A DNA stretch of 64,000 nucleotides from Novipirellula herctigrandis (lineage in GTDB: Bacteria; Planctomycetota; Planctomycetia; Pirellulales; Pirellulaceae): contig SJPJ01000001.1 in NCBI GenBank assembly GCA_007859835.1, positions 3,157,922 through 3,221,921 of the forward strand, read 5' to 3'. The notes under the pieces were generated by a model. That model was given only the letters and a program-made list of their open reading frames with translations, had not been told where the DNA came from and did not search any database. Both the position numbers and the translations under genes were made by a program. Positions 43,657 through 59,052 of this stretch are shown here, in pieces. Numbering within the stretch: the stretch's first letter is position 1; each line of letters starts with the position of its first letter.

Positions 43657-43731
43657 CGGGCCGTAGCGAAGCCTGGTTATCGCGCCACACTGGGGGTGTG
43701 GAGATCGGAGGTTCGAATCCTCTCGGCCCGA
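43657..43731 (+). tRNA. tRNA-Pro (GGG anticodon)
   Basis: A 75-base cloverleaf: acceptor arms CGGGCCG and CGGCCCG pair perfectly, the D arm is GCG...CGC, the anticodon stem is CCACA/TGTGG with loop CTGGGGG (anticodon GGG, preceded by T33), and the T arm has the usual GGTTCGAATCC core. Discriminator base A; the CCA end is not encoded. It reads CCC and CCU proline codons. It stands upstream of the divergent pheT gene. Confidence 0.95.
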
Positions 43732-43989
43732 CTCTAAGTCCATATGCTAAAAGGACTTGCGGCACTCGGCTTTGTACACACAACCTTGTGAAAACTGATG
43801 TACAAAGAATCGAAAAGGCATCCGCTCTCTCGGATCTTACCTCCGCTAGGCATCCATTTCAAAAGTAAGAACCATTCCGGCAATCTGCCGAGAACAGCTG
43901 TTTAAACTTTACCTTGCCCCCACTTTGATTCCTGACCCGCAGGATCAACTTTCGGGCTCGAAATGGAGATGCGTTTTGAGAATCTTCTC

Positions 43990-44064
43990 GGTGACGCTCC
44001 AAACGGTGACGCTCCAAACGGTGACGCTCCAAACGGTGACGCTCCAAACGGTGACGCTCCAAAC
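43990..44064 (+). repeat. 15-bp tandem array, five perfect copies
   Basis: Unit GGTGACGCTCCAAAC, five identical copies, period 15, followed by GGTGATTCC. Identical copies imply recent expansion. There are no spacers of unique sequence, so it is not a CRISPR array. Confidence 0.95.
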
Positions 44065-44158
44065 GGTGATTCCGGCGGATGGAGGGCGCCGGTTTGGTGT
44101 GAGATTGTCTCGCCACTCTCTATCGCTATTAAGATCTCGAAATTTGGGGCGACTTTTT

Positions 44159-44201
44159 CTCGCATCTGGGTTTTCTCGCATCTGGGTTTTCTCGCATCTG
44201 G
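44159..44201 (+). repeat. 16-bp tandem array, about 2.7 copies
   Basis: Unit CTCGCATCTGGGTTTT, two full copies (44159-44174, 44175-44190) and a partial third that diverges after CTCGCATCTGG. No coding function is evident. Confidence 0.85.
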
Positions 44202-45149: not shown

Positions 45150-45830
45150 CTACGCCACAAAGAGATAAATAAGCAATTTGATGTATTCGATCCAGAGCGG
45201 TGAATCAATTTCGGAACCCTCACCAACGTCGGACGCGGAATAGACTTGCACGTTAACTTGCTTTGACAGCGAACGTCGAAAACAAAGGCGACTTCGCCGT
45301 GTATGCGGAGCAGAGGTAACCACCACAATGCTCTTGAGGCCCGGTTGCTGCTCGGCAACCGCGCGTGCCTCACTAAGCGATCCAAACATCACGGGAGTCT
45401 CAACGGAAACGGTCGAGACCTTTTCGGCGGGGACGCCAAGCCACTCCAAATAGGCGATTGCTTTCTCTAGTCGAGTTTCGGAACGTTGCTGGACAAAGTT
45501 GTAACCAGCTGTCTCGCTCTCGGCCAAAATGATCAGTCGCGGCACTTTCCTCATGTGGAAAAGATCTGAAGCCGCATGAAGACGTTCCCAATAAGCGTGC
45601 CCGTCCGCCATCACATAAGCGGCATCACCCGATGCTTCGGGATCATGTACGACAAGTGGATAAGCAACGAAACCACGAATACTATGAAACGACAACAGAA
45701 CCATCGACAATAGCCATAGACCGATCACGGCAAAACAACGACGCCGCCAACGGCTTCGTCGCCTTGAAAATTTTGGTGTGAGCGTGGTTTTGCTCATGGG
45801 CACATTCAGAGCATTGGATAGAGACGACAA
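45150..45830 (-). CDS. DUF218 (YdcF/ElyC-type) membrane protein
   Basis: A 226-residue protein with a basic N-terminus, one transmembrane helix (FAVIGLWLLSMVLLSFHS, residues ~33-50) and a DUF218 domain. Domain positions include GDAAYVMADGHAYWERL, RLIILAESE, YLEWLGVPAEKVSTV and SIVVVTSAPHTRRSRL, which match the S/T-x-x-H/N pattern of the family. DUF218 proteins act at the cell envelope and their enzymatic role is poorly known. It is the last gene of a four-gene run behind an ABC exporter (32 bp from the HlyD-like gene). The start could also be the ATG at 45797. Confidence 0.75.
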   Translation of the reverse strand: MSSLSNALNVPMSKTTLTPKFSRRRSRWRRRCFAVIGLWLLSMVLLSFHSIRGFVAYPLVVHDPEASGDAAYVMADGHAYWERLHAASDLFHMRKVPRLIILAESETAGYNFVQQRSETRLEKAIAYLEWLGVPAEKVSTVSVETPVMFGSLSEARAVAEQQPGLKSIVVVTSAPHTRRSRLCFRRSLSKQVNVQVYSASDVGEGSEIDSPLWIEYIKLLIYLFVA

Positions 45831-45861: not shown

Positions 45862-46905
45862 CTAATTCGCTTGGATAAATACATCGACCGGTAAGCCGAC
45901 GGGCAAATCCGTTTCCTGTTGCAAGTCAACCCAAATGCGACGGTTATAGGTATCCGTTCTCTCGCCCGCCCATTGCCCGTACATCCGCTTGGGATTCATC
46001 TGCGGTTCAATCTCGATGACTTTACCGGTCGCAAGCACTCGATCCGAAGCATCGCAAGTGACCTGACAAATTTGGCCCAGTTCCACTTTCAAGGCATCGA
46101 ACTCGTCGACCTCCGCAACCGCCTTAAGGCGTTTGGTATCAGATAAAACAATTAGTGCCCCGGGCATATCGGGCCCAGTCAACTCACCAACTTCGGCTTC
46201 AATCGCTAATATTTGGCCGTCGATGGGGGCCACGATCCTCGTACGATCCAAATTAATTTTCGCGATTTCATGCCTTGCCTCTGCTGCCCGCACCGCAGCA
46301 CTGGCAGCCAATAGATCGTCGTCTCGCGCAGGCAGTTCCAAAGTTTCAAGTCGGCCTTTTGCCGCAGCCGTCATTGCACGAAACGAAGTCAGTTGCGAAT
46401 AGAGATCGTCGAGTGCTTGCTGGCTTCCAGCACCTTTCTCGTGTAGTTTGATCGCACGCGTATACGTTTTCTCGGCACCTGCTAACCTTGCCATTGTCGC
46501 ATTGAATTCCTGTCGTGCTGTTTCAATTTCGCTGTCTCGAAAGCCGTTCTCGAGCCGCTCTTTCTTCGCAAGGGCCTCGCCTAGCAACGCATTTGCCAAG
46601 TCGCATTCCTTGACGAACCGATCGGCATCCAGCACGAGTAACACATCGCCGGCGGATACCCATTGACCTCTTGCAACAAGGATTTCATGAATTTGCTCGG
46701 CAATTCGAGCGCGAATTTCGACCGCGTCTGTACGCCCTTCGATTCGACCTGCGGCGCGAATCGTTTCTTTATTCAGAACGTCTGTTAGACTTACCGCATC
46801 CAATGGCGGAGCGCCAACGGAGTGTGATTGTCGTTGATGTTCGTGCACGATCAAAACACTTCCGAAAATTGCAATCGTGATGACAGTAGTTAGGATCGTT
46901 TTCAC
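45862..46905 (-). CDS. HlyD-family membrane fusion protein (DevB-like)
   Basis: A 347-residue periplasmic adaptor. The N-terminal anchor is LTTVITIAIFGSVLIVH, followed by a lipoyl-like half (IRAAGRIEGRTDAVEIRARI) and a long coiled coil (EALAKKERLENGFRDSEIET, residues ~115-215). The second lipoyl half follows (LDRTRIVAPIDGQILAIEAEVGE) and then the beta-barrel domain (RRIWVDLQQETDLPVGLPVDVFI). It links an inner-membrane ABC transporter to an outer-membrane channel. Its start overlaps the ATPase stop by 4 bp (ATGA type). The DevBCA type exports glycolipids in cyanobacteria; the substrate here is unknown. Confidence 0.85.
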   Translation of the reverse strand: MKTILTTVITIAIFGSVLIVHEHQRQSHSVGAPPLDAVSLTDVLNKETIRAAGRIEGRTDAVEIRARIAEQIHEILVARGQWVSAGDVLLVLDADRFVKECDLANALLGEALAKKERLENGFRDSEIETARQEFNATMARLAGAEKTYTRAIKLHEKGAGSQQALDDLYSQLTSFRAMTAAAKGRLETLELPARDDDLLAASAAVRAAEARHEIAKINLDRTRIVAPIDGQILAIEAEVGELTGPDMPGALIVLSDTKRLKAVAEVDEFDALKVELGQICQVTCDASDRVLATGKVIEIEPQMNPKRMYGQWAGERTDTYNRRIWVDLQQETDLPVGLPVDVFIQAN

Positions 46906-47741
46906 TTGAATTGCCCGTTTTCAATCTCACAAATTCGGTCAGCATACTTTGAGATACGGGGATCGTGAGTCACCACAACCGTTGCCGAATCCGTTGCCCC
47001 GACCAATTCCTTTAGAAGTTCCATCACCTCCATACCAGACTTGCCATCGAGTGCAGCGGTCGGTTCATCGGCTAACAGTAGTTTGGGCGATGTGATCACC
47101 GCACGAGCCAACGCCACACGTTGGCACTGACCGGGACTCATCGCAGTCGGCAAATGGTTGCGGTGCATCGCTAACCCAACACGTCCGAGCAACTCACCGG
47201 CTTGCGCACGGGCGTCCGCCAAAGTCGCACCTTGCAGTGTGAGAGGTACAGCCACGTTGTCTTCGGCCGACAATCCGCGAATCAGCTGAAATCGCTGAAA
47301 CACAAAGCCAATAGAGTCCCGTCGCACCGACGTTCGCTCTGCAACACTTAATGTGTCGACTCGGCGATCAGCAATGACAACTTCGCCGGAGTCAGCTTCG
47401 AGCAGACATCCCAATATGGATAGCAACGTACTCTTGCCGCTGCCGGACGGTCCCGATAGAAAAACACATTCTCCCGAAGCGGCCTGAAAATCAACTCCAT
47501 CAAGGACCCAGCGCCGTTCCCCACCAATGTTGTACGACTTACGCACTTGGGTGGCAGACAAAACAATGTTTGTTTTCGGGTTGCCCGTTTTGTTGCCATT
47601 TTCATTGCTCGCTTGGTTAACCGCCCCGTTGTCGTTTACGCAATTGGCGATTCCCCCAGTTTGCAACGCAGGATACACCAAGGCGTTCGTACTAAGCGGT
47701 GGAGGGACAGCGGCATTGCCGAGTGAAATATCGTGAGTCAT
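46902..47741 (-). CDS. ABC transporter ATPase (MacB/DevA-like)
   Basis: A 279-residue ATPase. It has Walker A GPSGSGKSTLL, the signature MSPGQCQRVALARA (LSGGQ replaced by MSPGQ), Walker B LLLADEPTAALD and the switch histidine VVVTHDPRISKY. A ~60-residue N-terminal extension, rich in N, precedes the domain. It powers the permease at 47747-48874 and shares the run with the HlyD-like gene, overlapping it by 4 bp. Confidence 0.9.
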   Translation of the reverse strand: MTHDISLGNAAVPPPLSTNALVYPALQTGGIANCVNDNGAVNQASNENGNKTGNPKTNIVLSATQVRKSYNIGGERRWVLDGVDFQAASGECVFLSGPSGSGKSTLLSILGCLLEADSGEVVIADRRVDTLSVAERTSVRRDSIGFVFQRFQLIRGLSAEDNVAVPLTLQGATLADARAQAGELLGRVGLAMHRNHLPTAMSPGQCQRVALARAVITSPKLLLADEPTAALDGKSGMEVMELLKELVGATDSATVVVTHDPRISKYADRICEIENGQFK

Positions 47742-47746
47742 TCGCT

Positions 47747-48874
47747 TTAGCCCTGCAAAACGGAATGAGGATCAACGCGACGCACTCGCAAATACGGAAG
47801 CGCAGAAGCGGCTAAGCAGATCGTAAAGACCAATGCTGCACTGGCAATATAGAGTCCTAGCGGAATCGTAATCGCTGCACGAGGCGTACTAAATATCGCC
47901 TGGATCACGAACGACAAGACAATGCCTATACTGATGCCGACGACTGCAACGACCGTCGACTGCGCACCCAAAAGCAATATAATCTCTCGCTCGGTCGAGC
48001 CGATTGCTTTCAGCGTTGCGAACTCGCTTATCCGGTCAAGCACCATCGCGTATAACGTTTGTGCGACCATGACTAACCCAACCAGAAGCCCCAAGAAAGT
48101 CGCTGCGCCGAAACTTAGCCCAATGCCTGTGCGAGTCATCCAAAAATTGATGCTTGTTGCCGCATAGTCCTCCGCTGGCACTGCGGTCACATCCTCCAAT
48201 CGATTGACGATCGCGGCACACACTTGATCGCAGTCCACCCCTGGTTTTACACGAATCAGAAAGTAAGAAGCCATCGTGGGATCGGCCCCCGCAAAGTCAA
48301 CGGCACGGTCGTAGTGTGTGAAGACGTATGGCGTAACCAAGAAACTTAAAACACCATAAGACTTTGCGGAGATCCTGGCACGCCGACCGCCAATCTCGCG
48401 AATCTCTCCGATGGTGGGATCGAAAAGCTTGTCATCGTCGCATTGATCGACAATCACCCCGTCGGCGTACGATAGCGCATCAGCGGGACCATCGACAATA
48501 TCATAAGCCCGCCCCAGGTCCGACCCCTCGGTGACACCCACTAACATCACCCCCTCGAAATTGCCGTCGGGCAGACTAATTTCAGAAAAGCAAATACGCA
48601 AGGGTTCGGCGGATTGGACCCCCGGAACACTACGAATTCGATGGATCCAACGTTCAGGAATATTATGGGGGAAATCGACGTTGTGCATTCCGCGATGACC
48701 GACCCAAATATCGGCACCACTGCGGTCCACCAAAAGGCTAGCCTTGTTGATCAATCCAATAAAGAGCCCGCCTTGGATGTTGACCAACACCACGGAAAAG
48801 ATGACACCGATCAAGCCCGCAAGCAGCTTCCCGCGGTCGCACAGCAGCGTTCGAAGAGCGATATTCCAAAGCAT
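47747..48874 (-). CDS. ABC transporter permease, FtsX/DevC-like
   Basis: A 375-residue permease of the MacB/FtsX type. It has one N-terminal membrane helix (LLAGLIGVIFSVVLVNIQ), a large extracytoplasmic domain (~45-235) and three C-terminal helices (LSFGAATFLGLLVGLVMVAQ; LGAQSTVVAVVGISIGIVLS; LGLYIASAALVFTICLA). It forms a DevBCA-type exporter with the ATPase and HlyD-like proteins downstream. Substrate unknown; it may export a lipid or glycan precursor given the surface-oriented neighbourhood. Confidence 0.87.
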   Translation of the reverse strand: MLWNIALRTLLCDRGKLLAGLIGVIFSVVLVNIQGGLFIGLINKASLLVDRSGADIWVGHRGMHNVDFPHNIPERWIHRIRSVPGVQSAEPLRICFSEISLPDGNFEGVMLVGVTEGSDLGRAYDIVDGPADALSYADGVIVDQCDDDKLFDPTIGEIREIGGRRARISAKSYGVLSFLVTPYVFTHYDRAVDFAGADPTMASYFLIRVKPGVDCDQVCAAIVNRLEDVTAVPAEDYAATSINFWMTRTGIGLSFGAATFLGLLVGLVMVAQTLYAMVLDRISEFATLKAIGSTEREIILLLGAQSTVVAVVGISIGIVLSFVIQAIFSTPRAAITIPLGLYIASAALVFTICLAASALPYLRVRRVDPHSVLQG

Positions 48875-49135: not shown

Positions 49136-49594
49136 TTAACGCAAAGAGCTCAGGTGCCGTTCCAAAACAACGACTCTCGCATCGAGGGCTTCGATTCTCG
49201 CGGCCATCCGTAGCACCAACTCACGCAGCTCACGTTCACTCATTGCCATGATCTCTTTCTGTGGACGCGATTGTCCTGCACTCTCTTCAGCGGTGGGTGC
49301 GAGGGACTTAATCTGTTTCAATACTGCCGAGATTTCCGCCTGAATTGACTTTACCGAAGGGTGTGCTTTGCCAAGCTTGGATTCGGAAAGACGCAGCATT
49401 CTAAGTCGCTGCACCAAGGCCATCCCCTCCTCGGTCTTCAACGCTTCAGCGGGCACTCCCTTGTCGACTTCAACAGCGGAATCATTGCCAGAGGAACGCA
49501 ATTCACTGACCTGTCCACGAGTCAACGCATCGAGTTGAGTTCCGGTCAGCACAGCAAGGAAGAGGAGGGCGACAAAGGGGATTGATCGATTCAT
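49136..49594 (-). CDS. Small exported coiled-coil protein, hypothetical
   Basis: A 152-residue protein with a signal peptide (RSIPFVALLFLAVLTGTQLDA) and long helical segments (SKLGKAHPSVKSIQAEISAVLK, residues ~72-93, and the C-terminal RELVLRMAARIEALDARVVVLE). It probably forms a periplasmic coiled coil. No family is recognised. It is separated from the ABC run by 261 bp, so operon membership is not clear. Confidence 0.65.
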   Translation of the reverse strand: MNRSIPFVALLFLAVLTGTQLDALTRGQVSELRSSGNDSAVEVDKGVPAEALKTEEGMALVQRLRMLRLSESKLGKAHPSVKSIQAEISAVLKQIKSLAPTAEESAGQSRPQKEIMAMSERELRELVLRMAARIEALDARVVVLERHLSSLR

Positions 49595-49757: not shown

Positions 49758-50786
49758 CTATGGAATCCCACGAACGATCGATGGACCGATGACCTTCGTC
49801 AGCCAAACCGGCAATCGTTGCCAAATCTTTACCATTCGCTGGTTGCCCGACGCATCGGGGCGCATTTCATCGGGCGATCCCTTGCGGACGTAATACTGCC
49901 ACACGGCCGGATGCGGCTGGGCACCCCACTGAGCCTTGAATTTGTAAGTCCCGCTCCCTTCACTGCTGCGGCCAAAATCAAACGTATGGCTACCACGCTC
50001 AATCGCGCGCTCCAAAAGATTCCTGTACAACAACATGTTCGCACCCGTCCGATTGAATTCTCGCAAACTACTAGCACTGGGCACTTCAGTCACTCCGCCA
50101 TAGTGAACTAGCAATCCACACGCGATTGGACGCGATTCCTTGCGAACGATACACAACTCCGCATCAGCCTCGAAGTGCTGAAGAATGCTCGAAAAAAGTG
50201 AACGAGAAAAAACGGGCGTACCGAGGTCACGCATGTTATGGGCGAAAACCGTATAGAAATCATCTAGCAACTCCGCACCACCAAACTGGACGGCCAAGCC
50301 ATACTCGCCCGTTTTTTTTATTTGGCTGCGTAGTTTGGACTTGAACGACTTCATCAACGCCTCAGCCGACTCGGGTAATTCAAGTCGCATATGAACCTTG
50401 TCCGTGCGTTGGTAATTCAGTCGCGGATGGTCAACAGGGATTTCATGCCGAAGTTCCAGGTATTTCACATTCAATTGATCTGCCAACTCACAGGCCCCGT
50501 CAATCAATAGCCCTGCAACGTCAGGGTCTCGAGCCCAAACCCCACCGGTATTCAGGTAAGGAAGGCTGACCAGGAAGCGGCCAAAAATCGGCCCCGACAC
50601 CAAAACCAGCGGCAAGACCCCCGTTACATCATCGCCATCGCTAATCCGCAACAAATACGCTCGATGGCCAAGCCCCTCCGTGACACTGCCAACCCAGGGC
50701 TCACGGTGTCCATTGAGCTGCGGCAACGATGCGTTGGAAATACTTGGCCATGGAGCAGGCCAATCGAGTAGTTCAAGTTGATTCAC
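49758..50786 (-). CDS. FemAB-like acyltransferase of the PEP-CTERM type
   Basis: A 342-residue GNAT-type protein of the FemAB superfamily. The signature FGRSSEGSGTYKFKAQWGAQP at about residues 277-297 matches the FemAB group associated with PEP-CTERM/exosortase systems. Earlier segments such as ERAIERGSHTFDFGRSSE and SFKSKLRSQIKKTGEYGLAV fit as well. FemAB proteins transfer aminoacyl groups to peptidoglycan; in exosortase systems the role is not known. It has no signal peptide and is probably cytoplasmic. It sits next to two acyltransferases on the opposite strand. Confidence 0.8.
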   Translation of the reverse strand: MNQLELLDWPAPWPSISNASLPQLNGHREPWVGSVTEGLGHRAYLLRISDGDDVTGVLPLVLVSGPIFGRFLVSLPYLNTGGVWARDPDVAGLLIDGACELADQLNVKYLELRHEIPVDHPRLNYQRTDKVHMRLELPESAEALMKSFKSKLRSQIKKTGEYGLAVQFGGAELLDDFYTVFAHNMRDLGTPVFSRSLFSSILQHFEADAELCIVRKESRPIACGLLVHYGGVTEVPSASSLREFNRTGANMLLYRNLLERAIERGSHTFDFGRSSEGSGTYKFKAQWGAQPHPAVWQYYVRKGSPDEMRPDASGNQRMVKIWQRLPVWLTKVIGPSIVRGIP

Positions 50787-51337
50787 GATTGCAAAACTGG
50801 CAATCTAGCCAGCATTGGAACTCCAGGGGCAAGAGAGTTGGGCGAAGACTAAACGAAACCCGAAAATGGGGTTCCTGGTAGATTTTAATCGTTAAGGCTC
50901 ATGACTGTTGAAAACAGAACGGATTTTTAACCCGGAATGGGGTGCCGGCCATTAGTGGCAGGACCGGTTCCCAACTTGTCATTTCCCACCGGCTGCGGTA
51001 ATGCCGGGACTCGTAAAAACTCGTCCCATCCTAAAACCCCACCGCCAACCGATCGGCTAATGGTAGGCCGGACCGACCAAAGGAAGTTCCGGCATCAAGC
51101 CGAGTACGACCAGCAACAAGAACGCCCCCACTAACAGAGAAAACACAAGCAAAGCATGGCGATAACACGCCACCCGCCCATTGTCTTTTTCCCCAATCAA
51201 AATCAATTAAACCGCATTTTTGTCAAGCAACGCGGGTGAAAACGATGATATAGGTTGTACGAGATTTCCCATCATGACACGTCGAAATACAAGCTCCTTC
51301 GGGGAGCAAACCTAATCAATTCGCTATCAATAGTGTG
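50787..51337. other. Divergent intergenic region, 551 bp
   Basis: Lies between the FemAB-like gene and the FeeM-like genes on the opposite strand, so it must hold two promoters. No gene can be supported, and no confident promoter boxes, hairpin or repeat are visible. Confidence 0.4.
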
Positions 51338-52108
51338 ATGGAAAGCTCCAAGTCTTTTCGCCTGCGTGCGTCAAAAACAGCGGTTAACGATACAAGTTCC
51401 AGTTCGAAGCGCCGAAAGGTTTTGTTCACGCGGCTGGACCTGCTTCACTACCGAACCGCTCGATCACGTGATGATTTTGAGCGTGCGTTTCGGCTCTTAC
51501 AGCAGCGATATACCGATGCAGGTTTGGCATCCCCAGCGGATTCGGCACTTCGAATCATGCCGTATCATCTGTCGCATGTTTCGCAAGTGTTTCTCGCCGT
51601 GAAGTTCAACCGAGTCGTAGGAACGGTAACGTTGGTTTGGGATGCCGCTGCAAAGCTTCCGTTGGCGGCGGACTATCCCGAGGCGATTGACTCTCTATGT
51701 TATCGGTCTGAGCGAGTTGGCGAAATCACGTCATTAGCGATCGAACCCTCAGAGGCACCGCGTGGCGAAATTTTTGCTCAATTAAATCGACTGATGGGCC
51801 ATTTCGCGATGGAGAAAGGATTGGACTATTTAACGGCAGTGGTCCATCCACGTCATGCCAAGTTCTACCGCAAGGCTTTAGGTGCCGAGCAAATCAGCAA
51901 CATTGCTCGATGCTCAACCGTTCGGGGCAACGCGGGAGTTGTCGTGGCGATCAAGGTCAACGATTCATTGCGGTACCGTTCTCGCTTACCGAACTTCGCA
52001 TGCGAAGCAAAGTTTACGTCCAAGGACATAACAGCACATCCGATCAGCGACCAGGACCGCCAATACTTCGCCGCTCAAACGTACACCGCATTCAAGCAAG
52101 CGGGCTGA
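51338..52108 (+). CDS. FeeM-like N-acyltransferase, PEP-CTERM/exosortase associated
   Basis: A 256-residue GNAT-like protein of the N-acyl amino acid synthase / exosortase-associated acyltransferase group. The N-terminal leader is basic, followed by LHYRTARSRDDFERAF, then IMPYHLSHVSQVFLAVKFNRVVGTVTLVWD (acyl-chain cleft), VGEITSLAIEP (acyl carrier binding core) and VHPRHAKFYRKALGAEQIS (GNAT C-terminal signature). FeeM enzymes link a fatty acyl chain from ACP to tyrosine. The substrate here is unknown. It has a tandem paralogue at 52454-53263. ATG at 51338 preferred over the GTG at 51335. Confidence 0.7.
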   Translation: MESSKSFRLRASKTAVNDTSSSSKRRKVLFTRLDLLHYRTARSRDDFERAFRLLQQRYTDAGLASPADSALRIMPYHLSHVSQVFLAVKFNRVVGTVTLVWDAAAKLPLAADYPEAIDSLCYRSERVGEITSLAIEPSEAPRGEIFAQLNRLMGHFAMEKGLDYLTAVVHPRHAKFYRKALGAEQISNIARCSTVRGNAGVVVAIKVNDSLRYRSRLPNFACEAKFTSKDITAHPISDQDRQYFAAQTYTAFKQAG

Positions 52109-52453
52109 TGCATTCGATAGTGGGCCGAACGCCGTGATTTCCATCCGTTTTTGTACGGCGATCACTCGCGTCACTCTGTGACTTTCCTCATCTGGTCAAA
52201 TGCCCCAACTACGCGAACTGGGGGGACTGGTGGTACTCGGTTGTTTTCCTACGAGTGCGATGGTCCATTTAGCGATCACAAAGCGAAAGTCCTTTCGATA
52301 TTCGCTTTTGCCGCTATCAACGGGGAGTCGTGTTCGGTGGAATCCGTAGCGACTCAGAACACCCAGGCGGCAACCCAACGGAAGTCTCTAGTGCTTCCGA
52401 GAAGATAAGAGATTCACCGCATCTCCTGTGGTGATGATACCGCGAGGCTTTTC
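52109..52453. other. Spacer between the two acyltransferase genes
   Basis: About 345 bp with no gene that I can support. A frame in this stretch is a chance reading. It is longer than a normal operon gap, so the second gene may have its own promoter. Confidence 0.4.
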
Positions 52454-53263
52454 ATGCTCTTCACGTCTCATTCTTCCTCTACGCCATTTCCCATCTCCAC
52501 CACCGCTTTACCGCCGGCCGCTCAGGAGTCAAACAGCCCCATTGGTCAATCGACCGATCCTCGGAGTGACGATTCACCTCAGTGTCGAACCGCTCGATGC
52601 AGGAAAGATTACGCCGCGAGTTTTGCCACTCTTTATGAATGTTTTCATCGCAGCGATCTGTGTCTTCACCATCAATCAAAAATGCGGATCTTGCCCTTCC
52701 ATTTACGTCCTGAAACGCAGGTCTTTGTTTGTGAGCAAGGGGGAAACGTATGCGGAACCATTTCGATCGTCTTGGACGAAGGAGAGGGAATGCCGCTGGC
52801 GAAAGTTTTTGCGGACGAGGCCAAGCAGAAACGAGTCGCAGGTCATCGAATCGCTGAGTTGTCATCCTTGGCGATCTCGCCAACAAACTCGCATTGTAAA
52901 CCGGAAGCATTCGCTAAGTTGACTTCGATCGCGGTCGCGTTTGCTCGGCATCATGGAGTGGATGAATTGCTGGCAACGGTCCACCCCAGACATGCCCGCA
53001 TTTACGAGCGAGTGATGGGCTTTCGAACGATCAGTGACGTTGCGGCGCACGGCGGAGTTCTAGGCCAACCCGCCGTCCTGATCGCAGCACCGATTGACGA
53101 TCCCGACCTCGTCATCAGCAGTTGGCACCATTGGTACTTCACTAACCCGTACAGCGACAACGACCTCTCGCGGACGCAAATTCCCGCAGCGGATAGACAT
53201 TTTTTCGCGAAACACGTAACGGAATCACGTGGGAATCAAAATCCCAAATCAGCCAGCAACTGA
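52454..53263 (+). CDS. Second FeeM-like N-acyltransferase, paralogue of the preceding one
   Basis: A 269-residue paralogue. Positions align with the first copy: CRTARCRKDYAASFATLYE against YRTARSRDDFERAFRLLQQ, RILPFHLRPETQVFVCEQGG, CGTISIVLDEGEG, IAELSSLAIS and VHPRHARIYERVMGFRTIS. The N-terminal ~50 residues are a low-complexity S/P/T leader not present in the first copy. The duplication may allow two different chain lengths or acceptors. A flavoenzyme gene follows 241 bp later, on the same strand. Confidence 0.68.
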   Translation: MLFTSHSSSTPFPISTTALPPAAQESNSPIGQSTDPRSDDSPQCRTARCRKDYAASFATLYECFHRSDLCLHHQSKMRILPFHLRPETQVFVCEQGGNVCGTISIVLDEGEGMPLAKVFADEAKQKRVAGHRIAELSSLAISPTNSHCKPEAFAKLTSIAVAFARHHGVDELLATVHPRHARIYERVMGFRTISDVAAHGGVLGQPAVLIAAPIDDPDLVISSWHHWYFTNPYSDNDLSRTQIPAADRHFFAKHVTESRGNQNPKSASN

Positions 53264-53504
53264 GCTGGGCAAGGGGACGCGAAAATCCATTCATACGAGG
53301 TAAATCGCAAAACCTCTCGAAACGGGACTATGCGAAGGGTTGTCTCAATCGTAATCATCGCAACAATCGGAGGGGCTATCTTGATGCGAGTGGCTTCGCC
53401 ATGAACATCTTCTCGCCCAGACGAATCAGAGTGACCTAGCCTTTTTCAGCGACCGTCGTTACCGGCTTAACTCTCGCGTTCACGCCTGCCTCTGAATTCT
53501 GACC

Positions 53505-55205
53505 ATGACAAATCAATCGCCTGCTCTCAGCACGTCGCCATCCACATCGAACCCTATCGTGATCCAGGCTGAAGCGATGAACAAAAACACTTCCTCCGAT
53601 TCAGTAATGCAAGCAGCGGCAGCATGGCGCACTGTGTTAGGTGAATCGGCCGTGGAAATCGAGCCATCGGCTTTAGCCGACCATGGCCGTAATGCATATG
53701 GATCCCCCATCCGATCAGTCGCAATTCTGCGCCCACAAAGCGAAAGCGATGTTCAACGTATCGTTGATATAGCAGGTAAGTATGGAGTGCCACTGTATCC
53801 GATTAGCACGGGACGCAACTGGGGGTACGGTGCCGCATCGCCAGTCACCGAGGGCTGTGCCGTCGTCGATCTTTCACAACTGCATAAAATCCGGGTGGTC
53901 GACGCCGAACTTGGAATTGTGTCGCTGCAACCTGGGGTGACGCAGGGAATGCTAGCCGAATTTGTCGCCCAGCAACAACTTGATTGGATGGTTCCGGTTC
54001 ATGGCGGTGGGCCAACGTGCAGCATCCTCGGTAACGCACTGGAACGAGGCTATGGGCTGACACCAACGACCGATCACTTTGCCGCATTAACATCACTACG
54101 CGCCGTGTTGGCGGACGGATCGATGTACGAATCCCCCTTTCATGCCATGGGAGCGGAAACGCTCGGGTCGGCGCATCGCTGGGGGATCGGCCCTTATGTC
54201 GAAGGACTTTTCAGTCAAGGTAATTTCGGGATCGTCACGGAAGCGACCTTTACACTCCAACGACGCCCCGAACATGTCGAGGCGTTCTTTATTCGCATTC
54301 GTGATGAAGCTCAACTTGGCGAACTGGTCGATCAATTGCCAACGGTCTTGTCCGCGCTCGGAGCGACCGTAGCGGGAGTGAATCTGATGAACGATCGTCG
54401 TGTGCTGTCGATGTCGCGTCGCTACCCGGTTGATCAAGTCGGGCCGGGCGAGATTATTTCAGATGCGCTTTGTGCAAAGATGACTAAGAATGCCGGAATC
54501 ACGGCGTGGACCGCTGCCGGTGTGATCCATTGCCCGTACCGAATGCGAAAGAGCGTTCGCCGAGAACTGAAGCGTTTATTGCCAAGATCACTCTCACGCC
54601 CCATCCATATGAATCGCTGGAGAGTTCACTGGGCCAAAGCCGCGACCAGACTAATGCCTATTGGCCAGCAATCAATTATGCAACAGATTGATTCCATCGA
54701 AGCGCTCTTAGACTTAGCCGACGGGATCCCGCAACGAGTAGCATTACCGTTAGCCTATTGGCTTCGCGGCGACGCGATCACCACCAAAGAAGACCTGAAC
54801 CCAGCGCAAGACAATTGCGGATTGATTTGGTACAGTCCCTTAGTCCCCATGAAATCTGCCGATGTTCACCAATACGTCGCCATGGTCGAAAGAGTCTGTG
54901 CCGAGCATGGAATCGAACCACTCATCACACTCACAAGTCTATCCGAGCGACTATTCGATTCGACCGTCCCCATCCTATTCCGCCCCGAACAGCCCGGTGC
55001 CACCGAGCGGGCGCAAGCTTGTTATGAAGCCCTTTGGAAACAGGGCGAGCAAATTGGGTGTCTGCCATACCGCTTGGGGACTCTTACGATGAGCCGTTTA
55101 TTTAATGCAAATCTTGCAAACCACGCAAGCCTGTTACAGCAGTTGAAACGAACATTCGACCCTAAGAACCTGATAAGCCCTGGACGCTACATTTCCATTC
55201 AATAA
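53505..55205 (+). CDS. FAD-binding oxidase of the 4-cresol dehydrogenase/vanillyl-alcohol oxidase type
   Basis: A 566-residue flavoenzyme. The FAD PCMH-type domain includes QSESDVQRIVDIAGKYGVP, the signature STGRNWGYGAASPV, GCAVVDLSQLHKIRVV and GGGPTCSILGNALERG, all close to the 4-cresol dehydrogenase layout (with GYG and the GN-x-x-ERG segment). The C-terminal cap (LPLAYWLRGD; GLIWYSPLVPM) fits the same family. These enzymes remove hydride from the side chain of para-alkyl phenols. An N-terminal ~30-residue leader is polar, with no signal peptide. Whether FAD is covalently bound cannot be told. It follows two FeeM-like genes. Confidence 0.83.
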   Translation: MTNQSPALSTSPSTSNPIVIQAEAMNKNTSSDSVMQAAAAWRTVLGESAVEIEPSALADHGRNAYGSPIRSVAILRPQSESDVQRIVDIAGKYGVPLYPISTGRNWGYGAASPVTEGCAVVDLSQLHKIRVVDAELGIVSLQPGVTQGMLAEFVAQQQLDWMVPVHGGGPTCSILGNALERGYGLTPTTDHFAALTSLRAVLADGSMYESPFHAMGAETLGSAHRWGIGPYVEGLFSQGNFGIVTEATFTLQRRPEHVEAFFIRIRDEAQLGELVDQLPTVLSALGATVAGVNLMNDRRVLSMSRRYPVDQVGPGEIISDALCAKMTKNAGITAWTAAGVIHCPYRMRKSVRRELKRLLPRSLSRPIHMNRWRVHWAKAATRLMPIGQQSIMQQIDSIEALLDLADGIPQRVALPLAYWLRGDAITTKEDLNPAQDNCGLIWYSPLVPMKSADVHQYVAMVERVCAEHGIEPLITLTSLSERLFDSTVPILFRPEQPGATERAQACYEALWKQGEQIGCLPYRLGTLTMSRLFNANLANHASLLQQLKRTFDPKNLISPGRYISIQ

Positions 55206-55267: not shown

Positions 55268-56332
55268 CTAAGCGGTAATGGATTTGCGTTTGCGAGAAGT
55301 TGCTAAAATCGCGCTTAAGCAAGCGAATCCAATGATCGAAGCAGGTTCAGGCACAGCGTTGATTTTGAAATTCGCGGTGTCAGCAAACAACCAGCCGTTT
55401 GCCGTTTCGGCGGCAGTAGCGGTTCCCACCGAGGTAGGACTGGTTGTGGAGACATCTCCGTATCCAAGACCTATAGGATTACTGAGAGTCGTTTCAACTT
55501 GAGGCAAGAAAATGGTTCCATTGCCAAAATTGTGGGAAATTACACTATAAACACCCTTGAAATCACCGTAATTGGTTGAAGTTCCAGCCGCATCATCAAG
55601 TACATTAACCTGTGCCAATTTGGTCAAGTCAAGCAGTTCGGTTCCGGTAAACGAAACAAGTGACGGACTCAATGGGTTAGTGATAACATCAAGAACAGAC
55701 ACAGTTTGGAAGCGGATTTCATGGAAATCGTCTGTCGCATCGAAACCCATCAACATTCCTACATTCCAACCATTTCCAGAAGAAATTTGCCCACCAATTG
55801 CTCCGACGTTCAACATCGTCCCCGCCCCAGTCTGCATAGCACTCACTGGGACATTCGCTAAGTTCTCGACGATAGCAAACGTTGCATCGGTGGCGACCAA
55901 GCTGCTAGCAGGATTGTCAGTCAAACCAGCGACACTGCCAGCAAGCCCCGACGCATTAAGCATCGAGCTGAGCGAATTTGAGACGTTTGCAGCGCTGACG
56001 GTTCCGAACTTCAAAATTGAGTCTGTACCACTGCTTCCAACAGCTTTCACCTCGAACGAGTAAACACCATAAATGGATGGATCAGTCGATCCAAGATTGG
56101 CCTCAGGTTTCCCCGATGCAGCAACAGTATCAATTCTATACATACCCTGCACCAAATCACCCACGCCAAGCACCCCAATGTTACCTAAGCCGGAATCAAT
56201 CACCATACCAACGCTCTGATCCTTCACAGTATCCCGGAATCCATCAAAGGTGAGATAATTTCCGAGAACTCCAGCCTGTGCCGGCGCAGCCAATACCAAA
56301 ATTGCCATCACGGCAAAAAACTTTTTTAACAT
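55268..56332 (-). CDS. PEP-CTERM-anchored exported protein
   Basis: A 354-residue protein with an N-terminal signal peptide (MLKKFFAVMAILVLAAPAQA) and a C-terminal sorting tail: VPEPASIIGFACLSAILA, then RKR. That tail is the PEP-CTERM signal processed by an exosortase. The mature part is rich in S, T, G and V (for example SLSSMLNASGLAGSVAGLT) and probably forms beta strands. It is likely secreted or envelope-bound. Start taken at the ATG at 56332; an upstream in-frame ATG at 56386 would precede the signal peptide. No exosortase gene is inside the window. Confidence 0.9.
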   Translation of the reverse strand: MLKKFFAVMAILVLAAPAQAGVLGNYLTFDGFRDTVKDQSVGMVIDSGLGNIGVLGVGDLVQGMYRIDTVAASGKPEANLGSTDPSIYGVYSFEVKAVGSSGTDSILKFGTVSAANVSNSLSSMLNASGLAGSVAGLTDNPASSLVATDATFAIVENLANVPVSAMQTGAGTMLNVGAIGGQISSGNGWNVGMLMGFDATDDFHEIRFQTVSVLDVITNPLSPSLVSFTGTELLDLTKLAQVNVLDDAAGTSTNYGDFKGVYSVISHNFGNGTIFLPQVETTLSNPIGLGYGDVSTTSPTSVGTATAAETANGWLFADTANFKINAVPEPASIIGFACLSAILATSRKRKSITA

Positions 56333-56402
56333 TTTTCTTATTCCTAAAAACCTGTTATTCTTAAAACAAAACACACGTTTAGACACTTGCGTGCGTATTG
56401 GC

Positions 56403-56762
56403 CTAAGAAGGTTTCAGGAGACCGTCCAAATCTGGACAGGGCGGTAGGTTTGCATTTGCAATCTCAACTGCCCACAGAGGTATTGGAGTTGGTACAGCAA
56501 CCAACCCGTCAAATAGAAGTGCGGTTGAACTGAACGAGCAATTGACGCTGACAGCAATGCCCGACATTCCGGAACCATCACCCTGATCAATGCTGCCACG
56601 CTCTAGCTCTTGTTCTTGAGCTGCCTTTAAATCGGCAAGCATCTGCGCCGAACAAGCACCCAAGTTCTTTTCCGCTGGCGACTCACCCACAATCACGCCA
56701 GCATCCGCGCAGCGGAAAGCCACGAAAACCACAAGAACGGCGAGAAGGAATTGAGGTCGCAT
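56403..56762 (-). CDS. Small secreted cysteine-containing protein, hypothetical
   Basis: A 119-residue product with a signal peptide (RPQFLLAVLVVFVAFRCADA) and a mature part with four scattered cysteines (GACSAQM, VNCSFS, PCPDL). The four cysteines may form disulfides outside the cytosol. It is adjacent to and on the same strand as the PEP-CTERM gene. No family is recognised. The start at 56762 (ATG) fits the signal peptide; the longer frame from 56852 adds a non-signal leader. Confidence 0.6.
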   Translation of the reverse strand: MRPQFLLAVLVVFVAFRCADAGVIVGESPAEKNLGACSAQMLADLKAAQEQELERGSIDQGDGSGMSGIAVSVNCSFSSTALLFDGLVAVPTPIPLWAVEIANANLPPCPDLDGLLKPS

Positions 56763-57224
56763 AAAATCAAATATACGAGTCGTGCGGGGGGATTGCAAGC
56801 TTCTGAAGAAGAAAAACATAAAAAACCTTCCTCGAAATGAACATCCGGACACTTGCCTTCAATAGAATCCTAATTTTCCTAGGCATTGGAGAAAACGGCA
56901 GCTTGGAGCGTGAATTTTGAGGACACTAATCTGCGGCAATTAACGCTAATCACAGCAGGAGATCCTTCTCAGACTTTTTGAACGATTGAAGATATCTCTA
57001 AAAGCGAGCATTTTCGGATTGGTACGTCAAAATGTGTAACCTTCCATTTGACACTGCGATTGTGTCATGGCAAAACGCCTCAAACTGCCTTACAACCACT
57101 TCGCTGCAGTAACGCACTCACGTGAATGTTCACTCCCTGGCAAATCAATGCCGGTAGTGAACTCAAAACAAACTCCCTGCGAGCATAAAAGAACAAACAC
57201 AAAGCAAGGTTCCTGCGACTTCCC
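56763..57224. other. Intergenic region upstream of the small secreted protein
   Basis: About 460 bp between the PEP-CTERM pair and wecB, which share a strand. It contains a loose inverted pair GTGAATGTTCAC (57122-57133) and AGTGAAC. No gene that I can support. Confidence 0.4.
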
Positions 57225-58608: not shown

Positions 58609-59052
58609 ATGTCGACATTCCATTGTCTCAACTATCACGTAACGTTTTCCACGAAGCATCGCACTCCGTGGATCAAACAAAACAGGATCGACCGATTGCA
58701 TGCCTATCTTGGTGGAACCGTGAATGAACTTGACGGGCGTGCGCTAAAAATTGCCGGAGTTGAGGACCATATTCACTTGTTAATTGGCTTGAAGCCGGTA
58801 CATAAGATCGCCGACTTTATGCGTGAGCTAAAAAAATCTACAAGTAAGTGGGTGCATGAGGAAATCACGTTTCCTCCGTTCCAATGGCAAGAGGGCTACG
58901 CAATTTTTTCGGTAAGTCCCACCGTCTGCCCCTCCGTTGCAAAGTATATTGCGAATCAATACAAACACCATCGAAAACGATCGTATCGTGAAGAACTGAT
59001 CCAAATGTTGGAGGTCGCAGGTATTAAATACAATCCGAAATATCTGGATTAA
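58609..59052 (+). CDS. REP-associated tyrosine transposase (RAYT, Y1 family)
   Basis: A 147-residue Y1-type transposase. It has CLNYHVTFSTKHRTPW, the metal-binding HUH-like site GVEDHIHLLIGL (HxH at about residues 53-55) and a catalytic tyrosine in VAKYIANQYKHH. Members cut single-stranded DNA at REP hairpins and mobilise them. The surrounding hairpins match that mode of action. The gene is on the opposite strand to wecB/wecC and sits between them. No other RAYT copy is visible in the window. Confidence 0.88.
   Translation: MSTFHCLNYHVTFSTKHRTPWIKQNRIDRLHAYLGGTVNELDGRALKIAGVEDHIHLLIGLKPVHKIADFMRELKKSTSKWVHEEITFPPFQWQEGYAIFSVSPTVCPSVAKYIANQYKHHRKRSYREELIQMLEVAGIKYNPKYLD

Follow-up and report, generated by a model that had tools for sequence, protein, structure and literature searches.

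Stieleriacines are N-acyl dehydrotyrosines known from Stieleria (PMC7293339, PMC7378531), and the passages of a 2025 study that deal with their 2,3-double bond propose as its source a cyclase resembling ThiF and an enzyme of nitroreductase type (PMC12479983). By knock-out, the main synthase of S. neptunia is NasY1, which is encoded outside the ThiF/nitroreductase cluster (PMC12479983). Related enzymes of Mycobacterium tuberculosis cyclise and, in an O2-dependent manner, desaturate N-acyl tyrosine or tryptophan (PMC12856293; for tyrosine also PMC12479983). Here, a locus of Novipirellula herctigrandis is described in which two FeeM-type N-acyl amino acid synthases (NAS), NasA and NasB, precede a flavoenzyme of the vanillyl-alcohol oxidase/p-cresol methylhydroxylase (VAO/PCMH) family. 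The locus is real, and its predicted function is well supported: an N-acyl (dehydro)tyrosine pathway with a VAO-type enzyme where relatives have the ThiF/nitroreductase module. The window, i.e. the whole stretch analysed, comprises 64,000 nucleotides (G000:C1:3157922-3221921) of a 9.5 Mb genome, and coordinates below refer to it unless a contig or locus is named.

Craig et al. are said to have linked NAS to the PEP-CTERM/exosortase system in 2011. A VAO-type partner is not mentioned in the passages where PMC7293339, PMC11072679 and PMC4897644 cite that work, and in the parts of the open-licence PubMed Central literature that were available no report was found that links NAS or the exosortase/PEP-CTERM system to a VAO-type oxidase. 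In a methanotroph, a PEP-CTERM-linked lipid synthase is described as required for polysaccharide-band formation (PMC11072679).

Results

The flavoenzyme is a VAO/PCMH-family protein

The flavoenzyme (53505-55205, + strand, 566 amino acids) matches FAD_binding_4 in Pfam. A profile of 19 rows, made up of the flavoenzyme and 18 relatives, matched p-cresol methylhydroxylase (1dii) at 1.4e-125 against 3.8e-30 for D-lactate dehydrogenase, and the predicted structure (mean predicted local distance difference test score, pLDDT, 79.7) returned VAO/PCMH-family phenol oxidases at all of Foldseek ranks 1-47. A lactate- or glycolate-type oxidase is ruled out: the glcD score is 42.6 bits where the cut-off is 567.9, and phenol oxidases are far ahead in both the profile and Foldseek comparisons. 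The original prediction, made from the letters of the sequence, had placed the enzyme with the phenol oxidases on the motifs STGRNWGYG and GNALERG; both are present in the translation (residues 101-109 and 176-182) and the placement is upheld.

Tyr108, Tyr522 and Arg523 align with the Tyr/Tyr/Arg set that is presumed to bind the phenolate in VAO/PCMH enzymes. All three are kept in 8/8 orthologues and in 77/77 members of the genome-wide scan described below; among 11 divergent relatives, Tyr108 is missing in two and Tyr522 in one. Two relatives with Leu for Tyr108 (L053 1331-4176 and L059 167-3093) adjoin a Methyltransf_2-type methyltransferase, and an O-methylated substrate could form no phenolate. 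The position of the Asp that is assumed to be catalytic in vanillyl-alcohol oxidase is occupied by Gly in 7/8 orthologues and 76/77 scan members.

The residues that link the flavin adenine dinucleotide (FAD) cofactor are taken to be His422 in vanillyl-alcohol oxidase and Tyr384 in PCMH. For the original prediction, which had named a linking His or Tyr as a point to check, the outcome is divided: the VAO-type His is absent, its position aligning with Leu440, and the PCMH-type Tyr lies outside the aligned part, given that the profile alignment of the C-terminal part begins at PCMH residue 387 and thus stops short of Tyr384. Tyr418, conserved in 8/8 orthologues and 75/77 scan members, could be the counterpart of the PCMH Tyr, and Cys438 (8/8 and 76/77), near the region where VAO/PCMH enzymes link FAD, is another possible flavin link. 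In 4-cresol dehydrogenase proper the gene for a cytochrome c subunit adjoins the flavoprotein gene; no such partner was found among the seven neighbouring proteins scanned, the remaining window not having been scanned for one.

NasA and NasB are divergent FeeM-like synthases

NasA (51338-52108, +, 256 amino acids from the ATG used in the original prediction; a GTG at 51335 is an alternative start, giving an open reading frame (ORF) of 51335-52108) and NasB (52454-53263, +, 269 amino acids) score 125.2 and 138.5 bits on the Pfam FeeM model PF21926, both far above its own cut-off of 27 bits. NasB, the one synthase modelled (mean pLDDT 83.5), returned FeeM (2g0b) at Foldseek ranks 1-6 (E 1.8e-12 to 6.1e-11), with the next fold other than 2g0b at 1.6e-7, five orders of magnitude behind the best. 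The first acyl-homoserine-lactone synthase listed, TofI, stood at rank 9 (1.8e-6), and this identity is excluded for NasB by the lead of 2g0b. The earlier assignment of both proteins as FeeM-like members of the GNAT superfamily holds.

They had also been called tandem paralogues. Paralogy stands, but the two proteins are only 31.7% identical, and a 55-row clade (support 100/99) holds NasB and leaves out NasA. NasB groups with the NAS of G215, G223 and G206 in a 4-row clade (support 100/99), and NasA falls in an unresolved fork with those of G190, G160, G154, G172 and G159. Identity and tree positions together rule out a recent tandem duplication, and NasA and NasB are, judged by their sequences, old paralogues from different NAS lineages; several relatives likewise carry two to four NAS each, partly of different lineages. 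Such divergence would fit different substrates but gives no support to the two chain lengths once suggested for the pair. Substrate prediction from NAS trees was set aside because the published NAS tree, as presented in PMC12479983, mainly tracked strain phylogeny.

A third full FeeM gene lies ~70 kb downstream in the host genome; it and the gene taken to be NasY1 of S. neptunia fall in one 12-row clade (support 100/95). Separately, positions 25-198 and 27-195 of the 989-residue NCBIfam model PRK14852 match NasA and NasB respectively, and positions 612-795 match a nitroreductase-type protein (L057:6258-7475), a layout that suggests natural NAS-oxidase fusions.

The flavoenzyme accompanies NAS and nearly excludes the ThiF/nitroreductase module

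Among 241 genomes of the host's family, a VAO-type enzyme (E <= 1e-20) is found in 23, at 54-64% identity in eight besides the host and at 27-35% in the remainder. A FeeM match of at least 49 bits, which defines a NAS-positive genome here, occurs in 39/241 (54 over the Pfam cut-off, 60 at E <= 0.001). Of these 39 genomes, 22 have the VAO-type enzyme, against one of the 202 others, G216 (Fisher p 1.3e-19); at the Pfam cut-off the figures are 22/54 and 1/187 (p 1.8e-15).

A ThiF match of at least 200 bits was found in 14/241 genomes, 13 of them NAS-positive, the next match falling to 69.6 bits. The module was counted by ThiF because the S. neptunia-like nitroreductase query (12/241 genomes) probably undercounts: it found none in G207, which resembles S. 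maiorica, a species for which the text of PMC12479983 reports one. Across the 39 NAS-positive genomes, 21 have only the VAO-type enzyme, 12 only ThiF, one both and five neither (p 1.7e-5). At E <= 1e-15, neither the S. neptunia-like ThiF nor the nitroreductase has a relative in the host genome; meanwhile, G001 of the same genus has both of these proteins and no close VAO-type enzyme. Both states occur inside each of the genera g1, g50 and g60 and must therefore have been exchanged or differentially lost more than once.

Where both genes are present, they are often close. The VAO-type gene directly follows a NAS gene on the same strand, less than 260 bp away, in 6/22 genomes (G000, G160, G172, G190, G215 and G223), and lies within ~12 kb on the same contig in 13/22; in the other nine it is ~50 kb away (three), on another contig (four) or far away (two). 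The NAS-NAS-VAO trio on which the original prediction was built is not widely conserved in the relatives examined, and the conserved unit is one of NAS plus VAO-type enzyme.

VAO loci and ThiF/nitroreductase loci also share their setting, namely a UbiE-like methyltransferase (cluster c9), a PEP-CTERM protein (c6), a glycosyltransferase and an exporter. In G209 the order is glycosyltransferase, c6, c9, ThiF, nitroreductase, ATP-binding cassette (ABC) gene, NAS; this genome is taken to be S. neptunia, its methyltransferase-ThiF-nitroreductase-ABC-NAS order being that published for Enr13x_31210 to 31280. The order is glycosyltransferase, VAO, VAO, c9, c6 in G205 and NAS, VAO, c9, c6, glycosyltransferase in G160, and G159, of the same genus as G160, has c30, c6, c9, ThiF, nitroreductase, glycosyltransferase. 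No c9 methyltransferase was seen in the host window in the neighbour comparison. The S. neptunia O-methyltransferase candidate Enr13x_12160 was expected near the distant VAO-type gene of G209, and none was found in L060-L062 with the queries used.

The VAO-type gene of G212 is adjoined by one for a 980-residue protein that combines an N-acetyl-sugar-amidotransferase-like with an acyl-CoA-ligase-like part, and a gene for a 'male sterility'-type reductase comes next (L055 9785-13956, L056 8227-12398, L099 11582-15579); related genes also stand beside the VAO-type genes of G211 and G203.

The association extends beyond the family

In a sample of 392 genomes from the phylum, 17 have the VAO-type enzyme, 28 have a NAS that reaches 49 bits, and nine have both (p 2.1e-7, or 1.1e-5 once the two genomes that also belong to the family set are removed). 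Five directly adjacent NAS/VAO pairs were found outside the family in four genomes, G257 (twice), G316, G317 and G469, and the pair of G317 contains a tandem NAS.

With eight orthologues as queries, a genome-wide scan found 244 relatives, and the 80 best loci were analysed. The scan worked through two VAO peptide patterns and is biased to this VAO clade and unbiased for NAS. Distances were counted in 76 of the 80 loci, leaving out L180, L181, L183 and L186, where no intact VAO ORF was called. In 41/76 loci a NAS lies no more than 600 bp from the VAO-type gene, always on its strand; eight of these NAS are of the FeeM type and 33 of the TIGR03694 type, a cluster whose 44 members all match that model. 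Within 6 kb the count rises to 56/76, and in three further loci the NAS is more distant. Gammaproteobacteria other than Marinobacter, for example L153, L158 and L175, have looser pairs. In Stieleria tagensis (L108), NAS and VAO-type genes are 256 bp apart. PEP-CTERM-like ORFs are concentrated around the enzyme, making up 61 of the 298 ORFs within 2 kb against 2 of the 395 beyond 5 kb, and one lies within 3 kb in 53/76 loci.

Seven of the loci (L120, L135, L145, L147, L152, L171 and L178) come from metagenome contigs whose labels name other phyla and may be misassigned. L145 (labelled Elusimicrobia) and L147 (Omnitrophota) have identical NAS scores and the same NAS-VAO distance and are probably one sequence binned twice.

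Neighbouring genes

The PEP-CTERM gene that had been noticed near the trio is confirmed. It lies on the opposite strand directly beyond the flavoenzyme (55268-56386, -; TIGR02595 18.4 bits, cut-off 16) and belongs to cluster c6, which is present at VAO and ThiF loci alike. Next to it is the gene for a small conserved protein, c30 (56403-56852, -), which adjoins the PEP-CTERM protein in L051, L074 and L102 and has no match in Pfam or NCBIfam. On the other side of the synthases, also on the minus strand, stands a FemAB-family XrtA/PEP-CTERM-associated protein (49758-50786; TIGR03019 339.8 bits, cut-off 260.35). Exosortases are encoded in the host genome, one of them (PF09721 186.6 bits; G000:C1:3268768-3269523) ~47 kb past the window end. 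A PEP-CTERM protein, an XrtA-associated FemAB protein and a genomic exosortase, the marks of a PEP-CTERM/exosortase-associated locus, are all present.

Beyond the FemAB gene, and still on the minus strand, follow a small conserved protein, c17 (49136-49594), between exporter and FemAB, and then the exporter itself: a DevC/MacB-like ABC permease (47747-48874; FtsX PF02687; TIGR01185 95.4 bits), a DevA/LolD-like ABC ATPase (46902-47741; PF00005; TIGR02982 211.6 bits) and a HlyD/DevB-like membrane-fusion protein (45862-46905; PF13437; TIGR01730 96.2 bits, cut-off 94.9). The exporter resembles DevABC, yet the permease and ATPase scores fall under the curated DevABC cut-offs. A locus-conserved DUF218 protein (45150-45830, -; PF02698 32.1 bits, cut-off 27.6; cluster c12) completes this side.

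Further out, perfect tandem repeats at 43989-44069 (15 bp x 5.4) and 44155-44201 (16 bp x 2.9) lie a short way downstream of a tRNA-Pro (43657-43732). Amid polysaccharide genes, a small ORF (58609-59052, +, 147 amino acids) encodes a putative IS200/TnpA_REP-type transposase.

Discussion

Enzymes of the VAO/PCMH family act on para-alkyl phenols, a class that includes tyrosine derivatives. In the pathway proposed here, NasA and NasB would transfer fatty acyl groups, probably from acyl carrier protein, onto the amino group of tyrosine, and the VAO-type enzyme would bind the phenolate of the N-acyl tyrosine through Tyr108, Tyr522 and Arg523. Transfer of hydride from the benzylic carbon to FAD would give a p-quinone methide, which would tautomerise with loss of the alpha proton to N-acyl-2,3-dehydrotyrosine, a stieleriacine-type lipid. 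A single VAO-type enzyme would do what the stieleriacine proposal assigns to a ThiF-like cyclase and a nitroreductase-type flavin oxidase. The product may leave through the ABC/HlyD exporter encoded at the locus, and the PEP-CTERM/exosortase/FemAB setting would connect this product with the cell surface and with exopolysaccharide. Taken as a whole, from acyl transfer through desaturation to export, this pathway is considered probable. Its core, that N-acyl tyrosine is made and its side chain then oxidised by the flavoenzyme, was already part of the original prediction. Two outcomes named there as refuting it are not borne out, as the flavoenzyme falls among phenol oxidases and the GNAT proteins with FeeM. 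The core remains a prediction, and gains support from the co-occurrence, the neighbour conservation and the near-exclusion with the proposed desaturation module.

Several observations weigh against it. Catalytic activity in this VAO clade is itself predicted, its VAO-type FAD-linking histidine is replaced, and the related enzymes of L053 and L059 lack Tyr108. The role of ThiF and nitroreductase in stieleriacine formation is likewise presented as a proposal in PMC12479983, and NasY1 lies outside that cluster, so clustering is no proof of involvement. The near-exclusion weakens at the Pfam cut-off (54 NAS genomes, 20 with neither module, p 0.008) and for the nine close orthologues alone, none with ThiF (p 0.018); its cut-offs were picked after the lists had been seen, and the genomes are related, such that Fisher values overstate their independence. 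One genome, G209, has both modules, though its VAO-type enzyme is encoded at a distant locus and is 32-33% identical. In the phylum sample, 8/17 VAO genomes lack a NAS that reaches 49 bits, and Marinobacter accounts for 29 of the 33 close TIGR03694 pairs.

A p-quinone methide can meet other fates than loss of the alpha proton to 2,3-dehydrotyrosine: addition of water gives beta-hydroxytyrosine and loss of CO2 an enamide. An alternative that is possible, and clearly less probable than desaturation, is that the flavoenzyme converts N-acyl tyrosine to N-acyl beta-hydroxytyrosine or, by oxidative decarboxylation, to N-acyl 4-hydroxystyrylamine, the enamide given as an example in the original prediction. 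4-Cresol dehydrogenase hydroxylates by adding water to the quinone methide, and the nearest profile match in the PDB is the hydroxylating PCMH; the Gly at the presumed catalytic Asp position points the same way. The PCMH cytochrome partner was missing among the seven neighbouring proteins scanned, and dehydrotyrosine is favoured because the VAO-type enzyme nearly excludes the ThiF/nitroreductase module, whose homologues are described as desaturating N-acyl tyrosine (PMC12856293, PMC12479983).

That the enzyme acts on another phenol, either a free one or a tyrosine of a PEP-CTERM protein, and owes its link with NAS solely to shared exopolysaccharide/PEP-CTERM loci, is unlikely. It draws on the 17/76 loci in which the fetched stretch contains no NAS, a count that also weighs against the N-acyl tyrosine pathway: a PEP-CTERM-like ORF remains within 3 kb in 11 of the 17, as it does in most loci overall, and FtsX permeases adjoin the VAO-type gene in four. 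Such a substrate would leave unexplained the near-absence of the enzyme from NAS-negative genomes of the family, the uniform strand of the 41 close pairs and the near-exclusion with ThiF.

A further idea, regarded as improbable, is that the enzyme turns N-acyl tyrosines into reactive p-quinone methides, which then bond to nucleophiles on the neighbouring PEP-CTERM protein or on exopolysaccharide and lipidate them. If true, PEP-CTERM/exosortase bacteria would use the NAS-VAO pair to anchor surface proteins or polymer by lipidation, free dehydrotyrosine would be merely a by-product, and VAO-type genes beside PEP-CTERM genes would be explained even where no NAS is close. Recent or chance juxtaposition with no shared pathway is scarcely credible: two other genomes of the host genus lack the orthologue (one shows no match, the other a 29% match across 216 residues), but it recurs in eight more family genomes with conserved neighbours, and the phylum sample is enriched for the pair.

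The proposed N-acyl dehydrotyrosine pathway bears both on how N-acyl dehydrotyrosines are desaturated and on why NAS occupy PEP-CTERM/exosortase loci. If it is correct, a second desaturase, unrelated to the first, is present in bacteria that lack the ThiF/nitroreductase module and would on that ground be counted as non-producers. Furthermore, one flavoenzyme that stands alongside two NAS families, FeeM and TIGR03694, in planctomycetes and proteobacteria could offer a handle on PEP-CTERM-linked lipid chemistry.

Among known systems, the NAS-PEP-CTERM/exosortase linkage that Craig et al. reportedly described is matched in that NAS adjoin PEP-CTERM proteins and both NAS families recur. The flavoenzyme shares fold, sequence family and the phenolate-binding Tyr/Tyr/Arg set with PCMH, vanillyl-alcohol oxidase and eugenol oxidase, but lacks the VAO-type FAD-linking His and occurs in association with NAS and PEP-CTERM genes; a cytochrome partner like that of PCMH was not found among the seven neighbours scanned. 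The TyzACB, TrzAS and OxzAB oxazolone pathways, as outlined in PMC12856293 and PMC12479983, also proceed from an N-acyl aromatic amino acid to flavin-dependent desaturation, although they use a ThiF-like cyclase and a nitroreductase-type flavin oxidase, whereas the host has a VAO-type FAD enzyme and no cyclase was found. Of the stieleriacine combination of NAS with ThiF and nitroreductase, the host has only the NAS, with a VAO/PCMH enzyme instead of the other two. Other features are shared with the pathway of S. maiorica and S. neptunia: it belongs to the same bacterial family and has a FeeM-type NAS (NasY), its locus likewise holds a PEP-CTERM protein, an ABC exporter and, in some relatives, a methyltransferase, and the host genome also carries a NAS of the presumed NasY1 clade.

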